A DNA stretch of 22,781 bases from a virus. The stretch is taken from positions 1-22,781 of the IMG/VR virus record IMGVR_UViG_3300045009_000122; one strand, given 5' to 3'. Position 1 is the first letter of the stretch. Every line of letters starts with the position of its first letter. This document shows positions 4,250 through 20,723 of the stretch, one piece after another. Position numbers and translations under genes: made by a program. Under the pieces are notes generated by a model. That model searched no databases, had not been told where the DNA came from, and saw only the letters and a list, made by a program, of their open reading frames with translations.

Positions 4250-7200
4250 TTATACTGGTGTACCAACCTTCAACGTCCATGTTGTATCTGCATATATTTT
4301 AATTTTGTCTGCATCTATCGTCAATCCTTCTTCATCATCAAAAATAATCTTATTAGTTCCTATATAAGTATTATAAACATTGACAGGATTTACTCCATAT
4401 CTGTCTGATGATCCTATTACTAATACCCCTTCCCAAGTGGAAGAGTTAAGCCAATACTGCCAATCAAGGCCTGTTCCTTCATAAGATATTACCTGTTGCC
4501 ATGGTCTAGTTAATCTGCTTTGAATCTGTTGTAAATTATTTGCTTGGTAGAATGAAATATTATTAAATACAAATTGACCATTGAGATTAATAGAACCTAG
4601 AAATAAATCATAAAGCAAAGCACTACTAAAGCCAATTCCAAGGACTCCCCATTCATTTCTGGTAACAACTGGTTCTCTTACAAGTTTGCCGTTCCAATAA
4701 TAAGATAAACCATTGTAAGTTTGTCCTGAGTTTAAACTTTTTGCGTATACTCTGGCGCGATTGCCAGTTTCGCTATCTGCAACAAAATAAAATTTAATTG
4801 TGTCAGCCTTATATTTAATGTCAAAAAGTTCTACTGGAGTTTCTGGAAATTGTCTTTCGTCATATTTCATCCACATTTGTATGGCACTTACACGATAATT
4901 ATCTGCTTTATTTATATTAATTGGAACCGATAGTCCTCTATTTATTAAAGGATCGTAGTCTCCACGAACCTTGATTCCAGAACTTTTATTTAAGTAAAGA
5001 TAAGGGGTGCTTCCTTTATAAATACTAAATGGATTTTTAGACTTATAGTCATAATAAATTCCCGCTTTTTTATATGGAAAAATATCTACTCCAAATCTAG
5101 TTCCTACTGGATTAAAAGAGTTATCATTAAACGCTTGAGATGCAAGTTCTAATCTTCTTAATTTTAATGGTTTCTTTAAAATACCACGAATATTAAAATC
5201 TAAATGTGTTACGACTGCAAGTTGATTAAAGTCAATATTTTTAGCAGGATATAATAATGTATTATCTACAACTTCAAATTTTGTTGTTGGCCAATTAGAA
5301 AATTCTGACATGTCAATAATAGAACCTTCTCTAGCAGTTCTGGTTGTAGTAAAGTTAGACCTTGGAGCATTGGCTCCTTCTTCAACATATTGAAAAGTTA
5401 TATAACTTCTAATTGATGCGTCTTCTGTATCATATTCGTAATACTTTTCTGTTTGTCCTGACATTTGCAAGTAACTGTCCCAGCCAGTAAATAAATAATT
5501 ATCTAGTTGACTATACGATCTTTGTATTGGATATTCGTATTCATCTTTTAATTCTTGATAAGTCCAAGTGCTTGTTGAAGCCTGATCAACTAATTCAGAT
5601 GGAGATGGATATCCAATGTTGAATTGTAGAAAATCAAGTCCGTAGTATGAGTTGCCTGCTGAGTCATCAATAAATTGTGCAAAATATGAAAGAGGTAAAT
5701 AGTCTTCCCAATAACCAGCAACTCCAATATCTAAGAAATATGTATCATATGCTTCTGTTGGCAATAAAGTATAACTTGCTGTAAATGCAATTAATGATTG
5801 ACCAGAAGTGCTAACTGCAAATCCACTACTAAAATAATCTTCGCCTTCTTTTAAATTAACTGCGGTACATAGTCCAAAAGAATACATTTGTCCTTCAAAT
5901 GTATTAGCGGCAGTTGTGTCGCCCCCTACATATAATTCAAGACCATTTCTATTTCCAAAGAAAGAAGAAACATTTCCTCCAAACCTTGTAACCAAATCTG
6001 GAATATTAATGCCTACTGAAAATATTTGATCTACAGATATTGAAGAAAATGTATATAAAGAAGTAGTTGCTCCATTGTAATATAAACTATACACAAGAGA
6101 GTTATCATCTTGAATAACTTTAAAATAGTTACCATTTGTTTTATTGTATATTTTAAATAGAGTTTGTTCTATTGAGGTAACATCGTCATGACTAAATACT
6201 CCGTATACCGCTTTTACTTCTTCATTTAAAACATCAAAGTTTGTAAAATTATAATAAGCATGAACAGAGTTCCAACTAGTAGTTGGTCTAAAGGTTATAA
6301 ATTTATTGTCTTCATCTTGTATTGTTTGATTGTCATCATATAAATCTTGTAAGGTTTCATCTCCTATAAAAATTGTTGGCAATTGATATTCTGGCGTTCC
6401 AATATAGGTTGAAGTTGTTAATAAATTATCAAAACTTCCTTGATTCCAACTAGCAAAATCTGGATAAGTATAATTAGCAGTATAGTCAGCAAAACCATAA
6501 TCTATAAATGCTGAAGTTCCACCATATCCAGAATCAATTCCTTCTGGAGAAACAACTCCTTGTCCATAAACCCATCTGCGCTTTGCTACTGGAATAGGAA
6601 CTTGATATGAATAAATACCAACACAATCTATTTCTATTGGAGATACATCTGTGTATGAATAAAATCCAAGCCAATCTTGTTCGTCATCCCCATCTAAAAT
6701 TGCTGGCAAACTTAAATTATCTGTATCTATAGTAAAGTTTATAACTTCTTCACCATTTACTAAAACTGATGCATTGTTTCTAATTAAACGAATATGAATA
6801 AGCATTGGCCTAAACCATTCGCCTACGAAATGAGATCCAAAATTATTTCCTATAACAAAAGTTAAAAATCCGCTTTCTACATACAAACCATCTGATGATG
6901 CTATTGGACCAAATATTCTTTTAGGAGTAATTGCATTTGAATTTATTCTGGTCCAAAATTCTACAGTATATTCTTTATATTGTCCAGCCTCATTTAAAAA
7001 TCCTTTTCCTGGAATTATTAAAGAAGGTTCTCCAGAAGCATTTGGAGATAAAATAGTTGAACCGCTTGCACCGTATACCATAGGAACACTAGAGTTTCTT
7101 GCTACTAAAGCATTGTCATTAATTAAATAATATCCTGAATCCCCGCCCAAACCATATGCTTCTGCTTCAACTCCACTAGTTGTAGCAATCGCTATAGTAG

Positions 7201-7866: not shown

Positions 7867-8361
7867 TTAGGTTTTAGGAATCCACAATTTTTCGTTGCCT
7901 TTATTATGATACCTTGCCATAACAAACAATAAGTCTGAAAGCCTATTCAAATATTTAGGAATGTTTATATTGATGCCTTCTATTTTCCATGCCTGGCGCT
8001 CTGCTCTTCTGACAATAGTTCTTGCATTGTGCATAGGTCCAGTAGGTAAAATAAAAGAATGAAGAGGCTCCAGATATTCGTTATAATCATCAATTACGTT
8101 TTCTAAATAAGTTATTCTTTCTTCTGATATTGATATTGTTGGTGCCCCCGCAAGTTCTGCCCCCAAATCAAATAGATCACTTTGTATTCTATCTATAATG
8201 TCATTATGAAATTCAGTTGCCATGCCAATAGCGGAGTTGGCTTCATCTACTGCTCCTATTGCTTCAATTAAATCACTACTCTTGTGTATTCTTTCGTTAG
8301 TAACAGTAGAAGTTTTACCATCATCACCAGTCTTTGTGTATATGCGAGTTAAATGTACCAT
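7867..8361 (-). CDS. pduO: PduO-type ATP:cob(I)alamin adenosyltransferase
   Basis: Transfers the 5'-deoxyadenosyl group of ATP to cob(I)alamin, making adenosylcobalamin (coenzyme B12), in the cytoplasm. The 164-residue length fits the PduO/MMAB family. Its hallmarks are present in order: ATP-binding RIYTKTGDDGKTS (6-18), IGAVDEANSAIG (35-46), FILPTG (103-108), RTIVRRAERQAW (114-125) with the conserved Arg and Glu residues, and NIPKYLNRLSDLLFVMAR (133-150) with the conserved Asn-Arg-x-Ser-Asp. The ATG at 8361 is preferred over an upstream in-frame TTG at 8385 because the family starts just before the ATP loop, AGGA lies five bases upstream, and it overlaps the previous stop as TAATG. Fourth gene of the nrdJ operon; it likely supplies the reductase's cofactor. 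No key residue appears to be missing. Confidence 0.96.
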   Translation of the reverse strand: MVHLTRIYTKTGDDGKTSTVTNERIHKSSDLIEAIGAVDEANSAIGMATEFHNDIIDRIQSDLFDLGAELAGAPTISISEERITYLENVIDDYNEYLEPLHSFILPTGPMHNARTIVRRAERQAWKIEGININIPKYLNRLSDLLFVMARYHNKGNEKLWIPKT

Positions 8362-8495
8362 TAGTGTCCTGTCAAAGATCGCCAAATATCTACTGTTTTA
8401 GCATTAGCAATATACAAACATAATAAAGTTAATCCTAATTGAACTATGACTTTGTAAGTAGATTTTTGTTCTATGTCTCTATCAGTTAGTTTCAT
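8361..8495 (-). CDS. 44-residue single-pass membrane protein in the B12 operon
   Basis: A short ORF that is easily overlooked. ATG at 8495 overlaps the stop of the preceding gene by four bases (ATGA), and its TAA shares one base with the adenosyltransferase ATG (TAATG), so it fills the gap between them exactly. The product has a charged N-terminus (KLTDRDIEQKS), one hydrophobic segment around residues 14-31 (YKVIVQLGLTLLCLYIANA) and a short polar tail (VDIWRSLTGH). I recognise no family. The reading frame crosses the adenosyltransferase ribosome site without a break. Possible roles are a membrane anchor or partner for the secreted protein encoded just upstream, or an unrelated small membrane protein of the holin type; neither is shown by the sequence. 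Confidence 0.72.
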   Translation of the reverse strand: MKLTDRDIEQKSTYKVIVQLGLTLLCLYIANAKTVDIWRSLTGH

Positions 8496-8947
8496 GGAAA
8501 CTTTAACTCTCCTTTAGGACCAGTCCAAACTAATCCAAGCGAATCTCCTGGATTTAAATATTGTTGATCTACAGCCAATTGTCCCCAACCCCATTCTTTT
8601 TTAGGAAAAGGAATTGTTTGTTTTTCTTTTATGATTATTGCCCAATATGCTTCTGCTGGTGGCATAACTTCACAAGATTCAGCCTTTGCATCTGGCAAAC
8701 CATTTATCCTGCAAACCACACCCAAACCATATTTCTTGGTACCCTCTATTTCAAGATTTGCTTTTTGTAAAACATCTAAAGCAAGTATTTTGTTATAAGA
8801 TTCTACGCACTTTGTTAATTTTGTACCGTCGTCTAGTTGACCGTAGTCAACATAAAGATTAATGCAACTTTCATCTGACTTGACAAAACCTTGTAGTCCA
8901 GCAAATGCCAATATAAAGATTGCTATTGATATTAATATTTTTTTCAT
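8492..8947 (-). CDS. Secreted transcobalamin C-terminal-like (DUF4430-type) protein, putative B12 binder
   Basis: 151 residues. The N-terminus is a signal sequence: Lys2-Lys3, a hydrophobic core to about residue 20, and a possible AFA|G cleavage after 16, so the rest is outside the membrane. The mature part resembles the small beta domain that caps cobalamin in transcobalamin/intrinsic factor (DUF4430 family) and the secreted actinobacterial relatives. ALDVLQKA (56-63) is followed by YGLGVVCRINGLP (73-85), CEVMPPAEAYWAI (92-104), and a final YLNPGDSLGLVW (130-141). Four cysteines (28, 47, 79, 92) could form two disulfides. The ATG at 8947 is nine bases after the nrdJ stop with AAGGAG, so it is translated from the same mRNA. 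Family assignment is from remembered motif patterns and rests on context too; corrinoid binding is inferred. It could bind another small ligand. Confidence 0.7.
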   Translation of the reverse strand: MKKILISIAIFILAFAGLQGFVKSDESCINLYVDYGQLDDGTKLTKCVESYNKILALDVLQKANLEIEGTKKYGLGVVCRINGLPDAKAESCEVMPPAEAYWAIIIKEKQTIPFPKKEWGWGQLAVDQQYLNPGDSLGLVWTGPKGELKFP

Positions 8948-8956
8948 TATTTCTCC

Positions 8957-10987
8957 TTAGTATAATTTTATCTCACAAGCGTCTGTACTGCAATAGGCTT
9001 CGCCTAGCGCTTCTAAGTTTTCTACACCATCATAAATTGCAGACCAGTCAATCTTTGCAATTTTTCCAACATAGGAATTGTATTCTTCTCTTGTTATTTC
9101 GTTATATGGCTGTTGTGGATATACTTCATTTCCCATAGGTAAAAATGATACAGCCTTTAACTCTCCCTCATGCAAATGTAATGCTGGAGCAATATATTTG
9201 CTTTCTGTCTCTTTATTAAAAGATAATGTAACAGAAACTCCATTGTCAGACCAATATTTTTGAGCAGTGGCTGCCAAACCAATTTTCTCAAAAAGACTTA
9301 CATCTTTTTCAGACCTTGGATGTCCAGATGCAACTGGGAAGTATACTACTGATGTATTTGCTGATACAAGGTCTGCTTCAACTTTATACCCCGCTGCTTT
9401 AAACAAATGAAGCATTGGATCTACATTGCCAAACCTAATAGCACGTAAATAAAATGGTCCTCCAGGACCCCAGTGAACTCCAGGGGTAGCACCAGAAAGC
9501 AATGATACAGAACCAGAAGGTTTTACAGTTGTAACTCTAATTGACTCTCTTACACATAACCACTCAGAATATGTATGATCATAAGATCTAATTTTTTTAT
9601 ACCCCTCGTCCATCCACTCACGAAGAACTGGAATACCTTTTGTATCTGCAAAAGATGCAATGCCAGTTAAAGATGTTCCAATGCGACGATTACGTTGCAT
9701 AATTCCATTTGTAATCTGCCAATGTGTTGGAAGAAGAGTAACAGTTTTGCCATACAAATATGCAAACTTTAATGTTCTTAGAAAATCTTCTTTGTCTTCA
9801 TGACGATTTAAGTGAACTTCTACAAGTGTGCAAAGTTCATATGATTCTAATGGTTGTTCAGCACAAGGATTAAATCCCATAACTCTTAAATCTTTTTCAT
9901 CTGCAGGATCTGCAAGACGACCATAATTACGTGCAACATCAAGCCATATAAATCCTGGCTCTCCATTGTTTGAAATTAAATTAACATAATCTTCATATTT
10001 TGTTCCAACTTCTGCAGCAATAGAATTATTTGACATCCATGCCCATCCTGGTTTTGCTGGATTATACGAGTTTCTTTCTGGATATATTTCTGGATTTTTT
10101 AAATTACTAAAAACTTTATCATCTGGATTACCTAATGCTAATGTTGCAGAACGACGAACATTACCAGAAACAACGCAGGTACCAATTAAATTAATAATAT
10201 CAACTATTGCACGAGAGTCAAACTTGTCTCCAGTTCTAGAACCAATTACATTGCGAATTCTAATATGAAGATCCATTAATGGTTGTGGACCACTGGCAAC
10301 TCCTCCAAAGCCTTTTATAGGGGATCCTAGGGGTCGTATTAAAGAGTAGTCAAATTCTTGAATATTTTGATTTGCACGTAAAAATGAATTAATTAACATT
10401 CTAACTGACTCTACCCAACCTTCACGAGTATCAGGAATTTGATAAGTAACGACTGGTTCTGTAGGTAAATAAATTAACATTTCTTTGTCTTGTCCTACAG
10501 TATCAAACCCTACACCTACGCCTAACATTAAGGCATCCATTACCCAGCCAAACAAAGCCCCTGGATCATTACGGTCTATGTCTCTTGTTGATACCATTGC
10601 ACAATTTTGAAGGGCTGCTGAGTTTTTACGCTCCATAGTCATAGGAGTACCAAATGCCCATAAACCTCGTCCAGGAGGGGTCCATTTAAGGTTAAACATG
10701 CGATCATAGGCCTCTTGAGCAGACTTCTGTGCCTTATTGTCATTCCAGGGCAAACGGCTCTCTTTAGCCCAGTTTTTCTGCACTGAGTACATTCCTTCAA
10801 TTACCCGTTTGCAAACCTCATACCATCTTTCTTTTTTACCGTCTTCTTTCATGCGAGAGTAGGTACGAATAAAAGTAATCTCTCCAAGAGAGTTTGATCC
10901 TGCGTCTGTAAAACCAAAAGGGGGTTGTAAATTTTTATATTTATTGACAAATTCGTCTAAAAGACGAAAAGAAAATACGTCTGCCAT
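8957..10987 (-). CDS. nrdJ: Class II adenosylcobalamin-dependent ribonucleoside-triphosphate reductase
   Basis: Reduces ribonucleoside triphosphates to dNTPs using a radical generated from coenzyme B12; needs no oxygen and no small subunit. 676 residues, the single-chain RTPR type best known from Lactobacillus leichmannii (739). The active-site set is complete: Cys129 in QNCAMVST, radical Cys375 and Glu377 in FNPCAEQP, partner Cys386 in YELCTLVE, and a C-terminal CX4C (Cys666, Cys671) in YCSTDACEIKLY for re-reduction. KPSGSVSLLSGATPGVHWGPG (489-509) is the conserved phosphate/substrate-binding segment. The ATG at 10987 is chosen over an upstream ATG at 11056 because AAAGG precedes it by eight bases and the earlier start would overlap the promoter. 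No intein interrupts it. First gene of a four-gene operon that also makes its cofactor. Confidence 0.97.
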   Translation of the reverse strand: MADVFSFRLLDEFVNKYKNLQPPFGFTDAGSNSLGEITFIRTYSRMKEDGKKERWYEVCKRVIEGMYSVQKNWAKESRLPWNDNKAQKSAQEAYDRMFNLKWTPPGRGLWAFGTPMTMERKNSAALQNCAMVSTRDIDRNDPGALFGWVMDALMLGVGVGFDTVGQDKEMLIYLPTEPVVTYQIPDTREGWVESVRMLINSFLRANQNIQEFDYSLIRPLGSPIKGFGGVASGPQPLMDLHIRIRNVIGSRTGDKFDSRAIVDIINLIGTCVVSGNVRRSATLALGNPDDKVFSNLKNPEIYPERNSYNPAKPGWAWMSNNSIAAEVGTKYEDYVNLISNNGEPGFIWLDVARNYGRLADPADEKDLRVMGFNPCAEQPLESYELCTLVEVHLNRHEDKEDFLRTLKFAYLYGKTVTLLPTHWQITNGIMQRNRRIGTSLTGIASFADTKGIPVLREWMDEGYKKIRSYDHTYSEWLCVRESIRVTTVKPSGSVSLLSGATPGVHWGPGGPFYLRAIRFGNVDPMLHLFKAAGYKVEADLVSANTSVVYFPVASGHPRSEKDVSLFEKIGLAATAQKYWSDNGVSVTLSFNKETESKYIAPALHLHEGELKAVSFLPMGNEVYPQQPYNEITREEYNSYVGKIAKIDWSAIYDGVENLEALGEAYCSTDACEIKLY

Positions 10988-16150: not shown

Positions 16151-16256
16151 TTCTGCTATAAGCCCAACGCCTGCAAATCATCAACAGTTAAACCTAATGC
16201 TACTAATTTAGCCTGTGCTGCTGCTTTGGCTTCCGCCTTTGCTTGGGCTTCGGCTC
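16151..16256. repeat. DNA repeat, copy 1 (C-terminal part of small partner gene)
   Basis: About 100 bases encoding the AKAEAKAAAQAKL-ALGLTVDDL-ALGL end. It is strongly similar at DNA level to 17913-18010 and 18976-19080, with long identical runs such as GCTTGGGCTTCGG and ATCAACAGTTAAACC. Confidence 0.75.
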
Positions 16257-16371
16257 TTCTAATTATGGCTAATTCTTGGTCTGCTTCATAAATAGCCAAT
16301 TCATTATCATTCATTTCTCTATCAATGTAAGTGCCATCATTTTGATATATTCTTGTTATAGGTCTTGTCAT
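16156..16371 (-). CDS. Small Ala-rich fibre partner protein, copy D
   Basis: 71 residues. A short N-terminal part (ITRIYQNDGTYIDREMNDNELA) is followed by a charged, Ala/Glu/Lys-rich helix and the end AQAKLVALGLTVDDLQALGL shared with three paralogs in the window. The helix is likely a coiled coil or helical hairpin. The start overlaps the stop of the preceding adhesin gene as TAATG, so the two are translationally coupled. Position after a fibre gene suggests an assembly helper or a small structural subunit; the biochemical role is not known to me. It ends facing the lysin terminator. Confidence 0.72.
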   Translation of the reverse strand: MTRPITRIYQNDGTYIDREMNDNELAIYEADQELAIIRRAEAQAKAEAKAAAQAKLVALGLTVDDLQALGL

Positions 16372-17912: not shown

Positions 17913-18010
17913 TTACAACCCCAAAGCAGTTAAATCATCAACAGTTAAACCAAGTGCTTCCAACTTAGCCTGCGCTACTGCTTTGGCTTCTGCCTTTGCT
18001 TGGGCTTCGG
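17913..18010. repeat. DNA repeat, copy 2 (C-terminal part of small partner gene)
   Basis: Matches 18976-19080 and 16151-16256 through most of its length; differences are scattered single bases. It encodes the AKAEAKAVAQAKLEALGLTVDDLTALGL end. Confidence 0.75.
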
Positions 18011-18122
18011 TTTCATAAGCATCTGCTTTGGCTTGGTCTATTGCCTGTTGTTGTAATTCGTCAGCATTAAGTTCACGCTTAACAATTTCGCCAGTTTCAC
18101 AATTAATAATTAATTTCGTCAT
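17913..18122 (-). CDS. Small Ala-rich fibre partner protein, copy C
   Basis: 69 residues, paralog of the other three small partner proteins. The N-terminal TKLIINCETGEIVKRELNADELQQQA has the CETGE and acidic -EL patterns seen in copies A and B. A helical AQAKAEAKAVAQAKL region and ALGLTVDDLTALGL end follow. Start/stop overlap TAATG with the preceding fibre gene. The constant C-terminus and variable N-terminus suggest that one end contacts a common virion part and the other its own fibre, but this is inference. A 57-base gap with no gene follows before the next promoter. Confidence 0.72.
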   Translation of the reverse strand: MTKLIINCETGEIVKRELNADELQQQAIDQAKADAYETEAQAKAEAKAVAQAKLEALGLTVDDLTALGL

Positions 18123-18975: not shown

Positions 18976-19080
18976 ATTCTGCTATAAACCCAACGCCTGC
19001 AAATCTTCAACAGTTAAACCAAGTGCTTCCAACTTAGCCTGTGCTGCTGCTTTGGCTTCTGCCTTTGCTTGGGCTTCGGC
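18976..19080. repeat. DNA repeat, copy 3 (C-terminal part of small partner gene)
   Basis: About 100 bases closely matching 16151-16256 and 17913-18010, including the shared ATTCTGCTATAA flank with copy 1, just beyond the stop codon. Confidence 0.75.
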
Positions 19081-19209
19081 TTTTGTTCTTGCTGCATTAG
19101 CAACATCCAATTCCATCTGAGCAATTTCCTCAGCATTAGCATCTCTGACAATTTCCTCGCCAGTTTGACAATTCACAATTTTTACTTGTGGTTTATTTGA
19201 TTTAGTCAT
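18982..19209 (-). CDS. Small Ala-rich fibre partner protein, copy B
   Basis: 75 residues; paralog of copies A, C and D. N-terminal KPQVKIVNCQTGEEIVRDANAEEIAQ, then an Ala/Lys/Glu helix and AAAQAKLEALGLTVEDLQALGL. The start shares its A with the stop of the 410-residue fibre gene (TAATG). The C-terminal half is nearly identical in DNA to copies C and D, the N-terminal half is not, so the duplications are recent or kept uniform by gene conversion. Confidence 0.72.
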   Translation of the reverse strand: MTKSNKPQVKIVNCQTGEEIVRDANAEEIAQMELDVANAARTKAEAQAKAEAKAAAQAKLEALGLTVEDLQALGL

Positions 19210-20489: not shown

Positions 20490-20723
20490 TTATTTTATTA
20501 GTGCGTTGGCTTCTGCTTCTGTAAGACCAAGTCCCAATAGTTTTGCAAGTCCACTTGCTTTTGCTGCTGCTTCTGCTTCTGCTGCTGCATCTGCTGCTGC
20601 TTTTTCTGCTGCGTATGCTGCTGCGTCTGCTTCACGCTGTGCGATTTCTTCAGCGGTAAGGGGAATAATTTCCTGTACTCCCGTCTCACAATTTACTACT
20701 ATTTTAGTTAATGTTTCTGGCAT
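20490..20723 (-). CDS. Small Ala-rich fibre partner protein, copy A
   Basis: 77 residues, the most diverged of the four partner proteins. N-terminal ETLTKIVVNCETGVQEIIPLTAEEIAQ keeps the CETG and -EEIAQ pattern. The helix is almost pure Ala with Glu/Asp/Lys (AAYAAEKAAADAAAEAEAA), encoded by a low-complexity GCTGCT-like DNA tract. It ends LAKLLGLGLTEAEANALIK. The ATG at 20723 has AAAGGAG and lies 15 bases after the preceding adhesin stop. Unlike the other copies it is not overlapped, but the adhesin-then-partner order is the same. Confidence 0.72.
   Translation of the reverse strand: MPETLTKIVVNCETGVQEIIPLTAEEIAQREADAAAYAAEKAAADAAAEAEAAAKASGLAKLLGLGLTEAEANALIK

Follow-up and report, generated by a model that had tools for sequence, protein, structure and literature searches.

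A putative B12-acquisition gene pair inside a phage cassette for cobalamin adenosylation and B12-dependent ribonucleotide reduction

The virus record IMGVR_UViG_3300045009_000122 of IMG/VR, analysed here over its whole length of 22,781 nucleotides (22.8 kb; the window), stems from a tailed phage, as told by its portal, head protease, head and tail-fibre genes. Four genes follow one another on its minus strand. The first, nrdJ (8957..10987), encodes a 676-residue adenosylcobalamin (AdoCbl)-dependent class II ribonucleoside-triphosphate reductase of the RTPR type. Behind it lie the gene of a 151-residue protein that we call SEC (8492..8947), exported or membrane-anchored and with a predicted transcobalamin-type beta-domain, and, directly 3' of SEC, that of a 44-residue single-span membrane protein, TM (8361..8495). 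The last gene, pduO (7867..8361), encodes 164 residues from its ATG, a PduO-type ATP:cob(I)alamin adenosyltransferase of a short viral lineage. NrdJ and SEC are separated by 9 bases, SEC and TM overlap by ATGA, and TM and PduO by TAATG. The coordinates of the open reading frames (ORFs) bear out this packing on one strand, which an earlier reading of the letters (the original prediction) had described. The single promoter it placed in front fared less well, with 14 sigma-70-like sites against 12.8 +/- 3.4 expected in shuffled sequence; the scan for promoters and terminators stayed at chance level throughout. As promoter-like sites are no commoner than in shuffled sequence, co-transcription is argued from the gene packing. 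The four-gene order is not a matter of chance, since it recurs in dozens of viral contigs.

Family models allow both enzymes to be assigned. NrdJ scores 340.2 bits against TIGR02505, barely over the cut-off of 340.05, and matches PHROG_367 (E 7.8e-141), PF17975 and PF21995. It has the motifs LQNCAM, NPCAEQ...YELC and a C-terminal CSTDAC, in which cysteines C129, C375, C386, C666 and C671 sit as expected; the curated family model and the active-site cysteines thus mark it as a predicted class II RTPR/NrdJ. PduO reaches 160.4 bits against PF01923 and 148.6 bits against TIGR00636 (cut-off 108.45), and is by these models a predicted PduO-type cobalamin adenosyltransferase. Its viral lineage is about 25 residues shorter than cellular PduO. 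In the PduO tree, this short lineage (mostly 164-166 residues, window included) stands apart from a longer viral one (187-191 residues), which places beside acI bacterial sequences. As a minor point on NrdJ, the match in another phage (G003:C1:80020-81966, locus L208) holds one TAA by the search's count.

The nrdJ-SEC-TM-pduO order, which the original prediction proposed to look for in viral contigs, does recur. Scans of IMG/VR gave 104 and 179 stretches with SEC relatives and 243 with PduO relatives, at most 80 loci being kept per scan. Gene order was then counted over 78 distinct viral SEC gene sequences, a copy having room where its contig reaches the neighbour, and NrdJ being scored as presence or absence only. 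Of the 70 copies with room upstream, 57 have NrdJ directly before SEC, and of the 76 with room downstream, 74 have PduO. TM comes directly after SEC in every copy with room, including L044, L059 and L205. Among the exceptions for NrdJ are L203 and L204, where some 350 bp lie between it and SEC; the others are a group of loci like L063 together with L205. SEC-TM is kept without PduO in L038, L039 and L170; in L038 and L170, a homologue of the window's 1193-residue ORF comes after TM instead.

The enzymes around the pair are far less stable. L060/L061 share only 28% identity with the window in NrdJ and 47% in PduO, but 86% in TM and 66% in SEC, while L046 shares 61% in NrdJ and 51% in PduO. In the L063-like group, SEC-TM-PduO stands among replication genes and NrdJ elsewhere in the genome: the long records of this group (G001, G002 and G003), and also G009, each have one NrdJ of the L060 type, and none was seen in the shorter records, which may reflect record length alone. 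Taken with the PduO tree, these swaps imply that SEC-TM has had partners from two lineages of NrdJ and from two of PduO. SEC-TM is the constant part of the cassette while the enzymes change, move or go missing. Among 50,697 GenBank phage records, no SEC relative was found. The closest NrdJ proteins of isolated phages, at 61% identity, are those of Actinomycetia phage DSL-LC01 and mycobacteriophage Gaia, whose gene neighbours differ. A separate case is L132 (6366-6634), a phage with a short-lineage PduO and no SEC, where two apparent membrane ORFs of about 50 residues take the place of SEC-TM.

SEC begins with a hydrophobic signal or anchor (residues 4-22, minus-strand positions 8882..8938; Kyte-Doolittle mean 2.46 over 19 residues). 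In alignments, its cysteines 28, 47, 79 and 92 are invariant over viral and host copies; with the hydrophobic N-terminus, they are what would be expected of an exported, disulphide-bonded domain. Y101, W102, W119 and W121 of SEC are invariant too. The signal-peptide protein of the original prediction holds as far as this N-terminus goes, and its release from the membrane is weaker than claimed: so hydrophobic a segment with no evident lipobox suggests that SEC may be anchored.

No Pfam, PHROG or NCBIfam family was matched by SEC or TM, and SEC has no detectable sequence match among PDB chains. We therefore turn to two AlphaFold2 models, one of the window SEC (predicted local distance difference test, pLDDT, 73.6) and one restricted to the extracellular domain of L119 SEC, a diverged copy (pLDDT 87.7; predicted template modelling score 0.80). 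For both, the top solved structures are 3u7z, a DUF4430 protein, and the beta-domains of three B12 carriers (transcobalamin, intrinsic factor and haptocorrin); Z is 8.7-9.4 for the window protein, where the next folds reach 5.9, and 10.7-11.5 for L119, where they reach 6.7. The match between SEC model and carrier covers 92-99 residues; a library of viral predicted structures yielded no significant match. SEC thus has, as modelled, a transcobalamin-type beta-domain fold. It differs from the three carriers by lacking an alpha-barrel domain, by its bacterial or phage origin and by its membrane mini-protein partner. The isolated transcobalamin beta-domain binds cobalamin and cobinamide (PMC5599065), and SEC, judging by the models, probably looks and works like it.

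The host points in the same direction. The cellular PduO nearest to phage PduO belongs to freshwater acI-type Actinomycetota, and the window portal protein is nearest to portals of large Streptomyces phages, two affinities that make an actinobacterial host likely. PduO proteins like those of acI also came from metagenome bins whose titles disagree with them and which are probably mislabelled or mixed: L221, L257, L261, L262 (titled Bifidobacterium breve) and L235 (Ca. Fonsibacter lacus). A pattern scan of genome contigs found no SEC; a profile search of 201 whole genomes, all belonging to Nanopelagicales (acI), the order that includes Ca. Planktophila lacus, found it in 10 (E ~1e-40). Host and phage SEC are 38-43% identical. 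In nine neighbourhoods read, a single-span TM-like protein of 53-56 residues lies directly 3' of host SEC. The window TM ends in a conserved tail, WRSLTGH (8364..8384, minus strand, from alignments), and its last residue is His in every viral copy seen; host C-termini read WR.WGGH(Y) or WR.WGAC/WAAC, so that a final His (or HisTyr) or Cys recurs. On the strength of this conservation one may speculate that the terminal residue could be a cobalt ligand.

An AdoCbl/cobalamin riboswitch stands directly upstream of host SEC-TM in 7/7 loci scanned with Rfam. A genome-wide search placed the only riboswitch of the genome, or one of two in G039, before SEC-TM in all ten genomes with SEC. Neither the window nor seven other phage loci showed a B12 riboswitch. 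The second riboswitch of G039 (L396; G039:C1:253658-253798, minus strand) lies upstream of an apparent class I ribonucleotide reductase (RNR) operon whose ORFs resemble the glutaredoxin-like NrdH, NrdI, NrdE and NrdF, which suggests B12 control of an alternative RNR.

In six acI genomes without SEC, the riboswitch is followed by an exported protein and components of an energy-coupling factor (ECF) transporter, namely EcfT (PF02361), EcfA (two PF00005 stretches) and EcfS (PF12822), as assigned with Pfam on the G023 copy. The flanking genes match those of host SEC-TM wherever the fetched stretch reaches them. Such a riboswitch-led ECF module has been proposed to import cobalamin in acI strains auxotrophic for B12 (PMC5301498). 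EcfT of the slot type is present in 128 of the 201 genomes and in none of the ten with SEC. A permease of the FecCD/BtuC type (PF01032) is found in four of six reference acI genomes and again in none of the ten, which therefore give no sign of a BtuFCD ABC transporter. In two single-contig genomes with SEC (G031 and G033), neither BtuC nor an EcfT match of any kind was found. The host pair thus shares chromosomal slot and riboswitch with the ECF locus; it differs in having no adjoining ATPase, EcfT or S component, and the phage copies lack the riboswitch as well. With no ECF gene among the ORFs adjoining the phage genes or the acI SEC-TM pairs, the locus does not qualify as an ECF-type B12 transporter. 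PduO was detected in 16/16 acI genomes tested and NrdJ in 15, the share of the SEC-bearing genomes being 10/10 and 9/10; having kept both, these genomes appear to need AdoCbl.

More distant homologues occur in other Actinomycetes of high GC content, where lipoproteins resembling SEC (E 5.7e-35 by profile comparison with it) adjoin ABC/ECF genes, and where the lipoprotein gene of L384 and L388 lies next to that of methionine synthase, MetH. Pfam confirms the L384 ATPase and both MetH genes; several other neighbour calls come from reading the ORFs. ECF genes beside SEC homologues were seen only in this diverged set.

The explanation we favour, to which we give roughly three chances in four, is that a B12-acquisition pair of host type has been built into a riboswitch-free phage cassette that would capture, adenosylate and use the corrinoid. 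It builds on the gene order, the homology, the predicted fold and the riboswitch and locus context of the host copies. We infer that SEC would sit on the outside of the host membrane and bind a corrinoid through its transcobalamin-type beta-domain, and that TM, made right after it, would partner SEC at the membrane and help pass the corrinoid inward. Once inside, the cobalamin would be adenosylated by PduO, giving the phage NrdJ the AdoCbl it needs to make deoxyribonucleoside triphosphates for phage replication. In acI-type freshwater Actinomycetota, the pair is a two-gene module under an AdoCbl riboswitch, of which SEC-TM in the phage would be the viral counterpart. Lacking the riboswitch, the phage copies should keep uptake going even at high B12.

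The suggestion of the original prediction that the two middle proteins help obtain the corrinoid is in this way well supported, short of proof, by the transcobalamin-like predicted fold, the host orthologue pairs behind AdoCbl riboswitches in an ECF-transporter slot and the high-GC homologues beside ECF genes or metH. A predominance of homologues away from B12-dependent genes, which was to count against it, was not found. That the cassette frees the phage from the coenzyme supply of its host is too strong a statement: the environment must still supply the corrinoid, and acI genomes encode a PduO of their own and, in most cases, an NrdJ.

Several points weigh against our explanation. A common fold alone is no proof of corrinoid binding by SEC, as modelled here; beta-grasp folds occur in proteins of many functions, and the annotation given to 3u7z is that of a metal-binding protein. 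The hidden Markov model of DUF4430 (PF14478) was matched by none of 35 SEC members, and the profile alignment of SEC with DUF4430 by hhalign is modest (E 7.6e-5, probability 62%), although collinear and better than column shuffles (E >= 0.036). The likeness to DUF4430 that had been suggested for SEC does not amount to membership. DUF4430 proteins resemble SEC through 3u7z, among its top fold matches, and possibly through this weak profile similarity; SEC differs by a conserved EWGW-type segment and the four cysteines, unseen in the DUF4430 sequences read. With so weak a sequence link, we liken SEC to the transcobalamin beta-domain and do not place it in DUF4430. Nor was any known permease found beside SEC-TM that would account for translocation. 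The host, likely actinobacterial, is one that we infer. Finally, the six genomes with SEC that the PduO tree includes form one group there, and the anticorrelation with ECF and BtuC may therefore be one event. On DUF4430 itself, locus L343 has a cobalamin riboswitch (6398-6614; RF00174, 79 bits) upstream of a large exported ORF adjoining a DUF4430 match, which suggests a B12 link for DUF4430 proteins of other Actinomycetota too.

Of the other explanations, the one that survives best, though unlikely, is that SEC-TM handles another ligand, such as cobalt, a tetrapyrrole like heme or a fragment of B12, and is tied to B12 only indirectly. The annotation of 3u7z, the closest bacterial structure, as a putative metal-binding protein would suit it, as would the heme auxotrophy of some acI-type bacteria (PMC12381374). 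AdoCbl riboswitch control at 10/10 host loci, the predicted B12-carrier fold and the neighbouring PduO, NrdJ, ECF genes and metH all argue for B12 itself. Somewhat less probable still is a surface decoy or blocker, by which SEC-TM would occupy or mimic the host B12 receptor against superinfecting phages and would stand between nrdJ and pduO through a shared expression class. Phage exclusion systems typically employ small exported and small membrane proteins, B12 receptors serve as phage receptors in other bacteria, and a pair that stays constant while its neighbours vary would fit; but exclusion has no need of PduO or NrdJ, which nearly all viral SEC-TM pairs adjoin, and host copies behind AdoCbl riboswitches in a B12-transporter slot point to uptake. 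A plain nucleotide and cofactor operon into which two small, functionally unrelated genes have hitch-hiked is already disfavoured and very improbable, for although tight packing of unrelated small genes is common in phage genomes and the DSL-LC01 and Gaia nrdJ genes have other neighbours, SEC-TM survives swaps of both enzymes and two genomic locations and exists in host genomes as a riboswitch-controlled unit.

Returning to the capture and use of corrinoid by the phage, a bolder version can be put forward tentatively: SEC-TM may be a minimal system that imports B12 or hands it on with no BtuCD or ECF machinery. It may be the sole recognisable B12-acquisition locus left to some streamlined acI bacteria, and freshwater phages may carry a version of their own that lacks the riboswitch and is coupled to PduO and NrdJ.

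Phages with a B12-dependent RNR are already known, among them cobaviruses and RTPR virioplankton (PMC6775973, PMC10547690) and mycobacteriophage Gaia, and share with the window a class II NrdJ/RTPR of their own; they have so far been taken as relying on B12 supplied by the host. By term search, neither of these two papers mentions a B12 transporter, PMC10547690 does not mention an adenosyltransferase, and RNR and B12 terms are absent from a paper on isolated Nanopelagicales phages. The four-gene cassette and SEC-TM had no earlier description in the open-access literature searched, a scope that leaves bioRxiv and subscription papers outside. Here capture, activation and use appear to be united in phages whose hosts are probably auxotrophic for B12, with SEC-TM possibly a new B12-acquisition pair inside a phage cassette of nucleotide metabolism. 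The findings also suggest that abundant lake bacteria have a family of B12-acquisition proteins that had gone unrecognised, whose predicted fold, in bacteria as in phages, resembles that of transcobalamin. Direct tests of binding and uptake are now possible.

Elsewhere on the minus strand of the window, four small paralogues (16156-16371, 17913-18122, 18982-19209 and 20490-20723) have similar Ala/Lys-rich C-termini, ending in LGLTVDDLQALGL or similar. ORFs resembling tail fibres alternate with them, which would fit the duplication of a unit of fibre and small partner.

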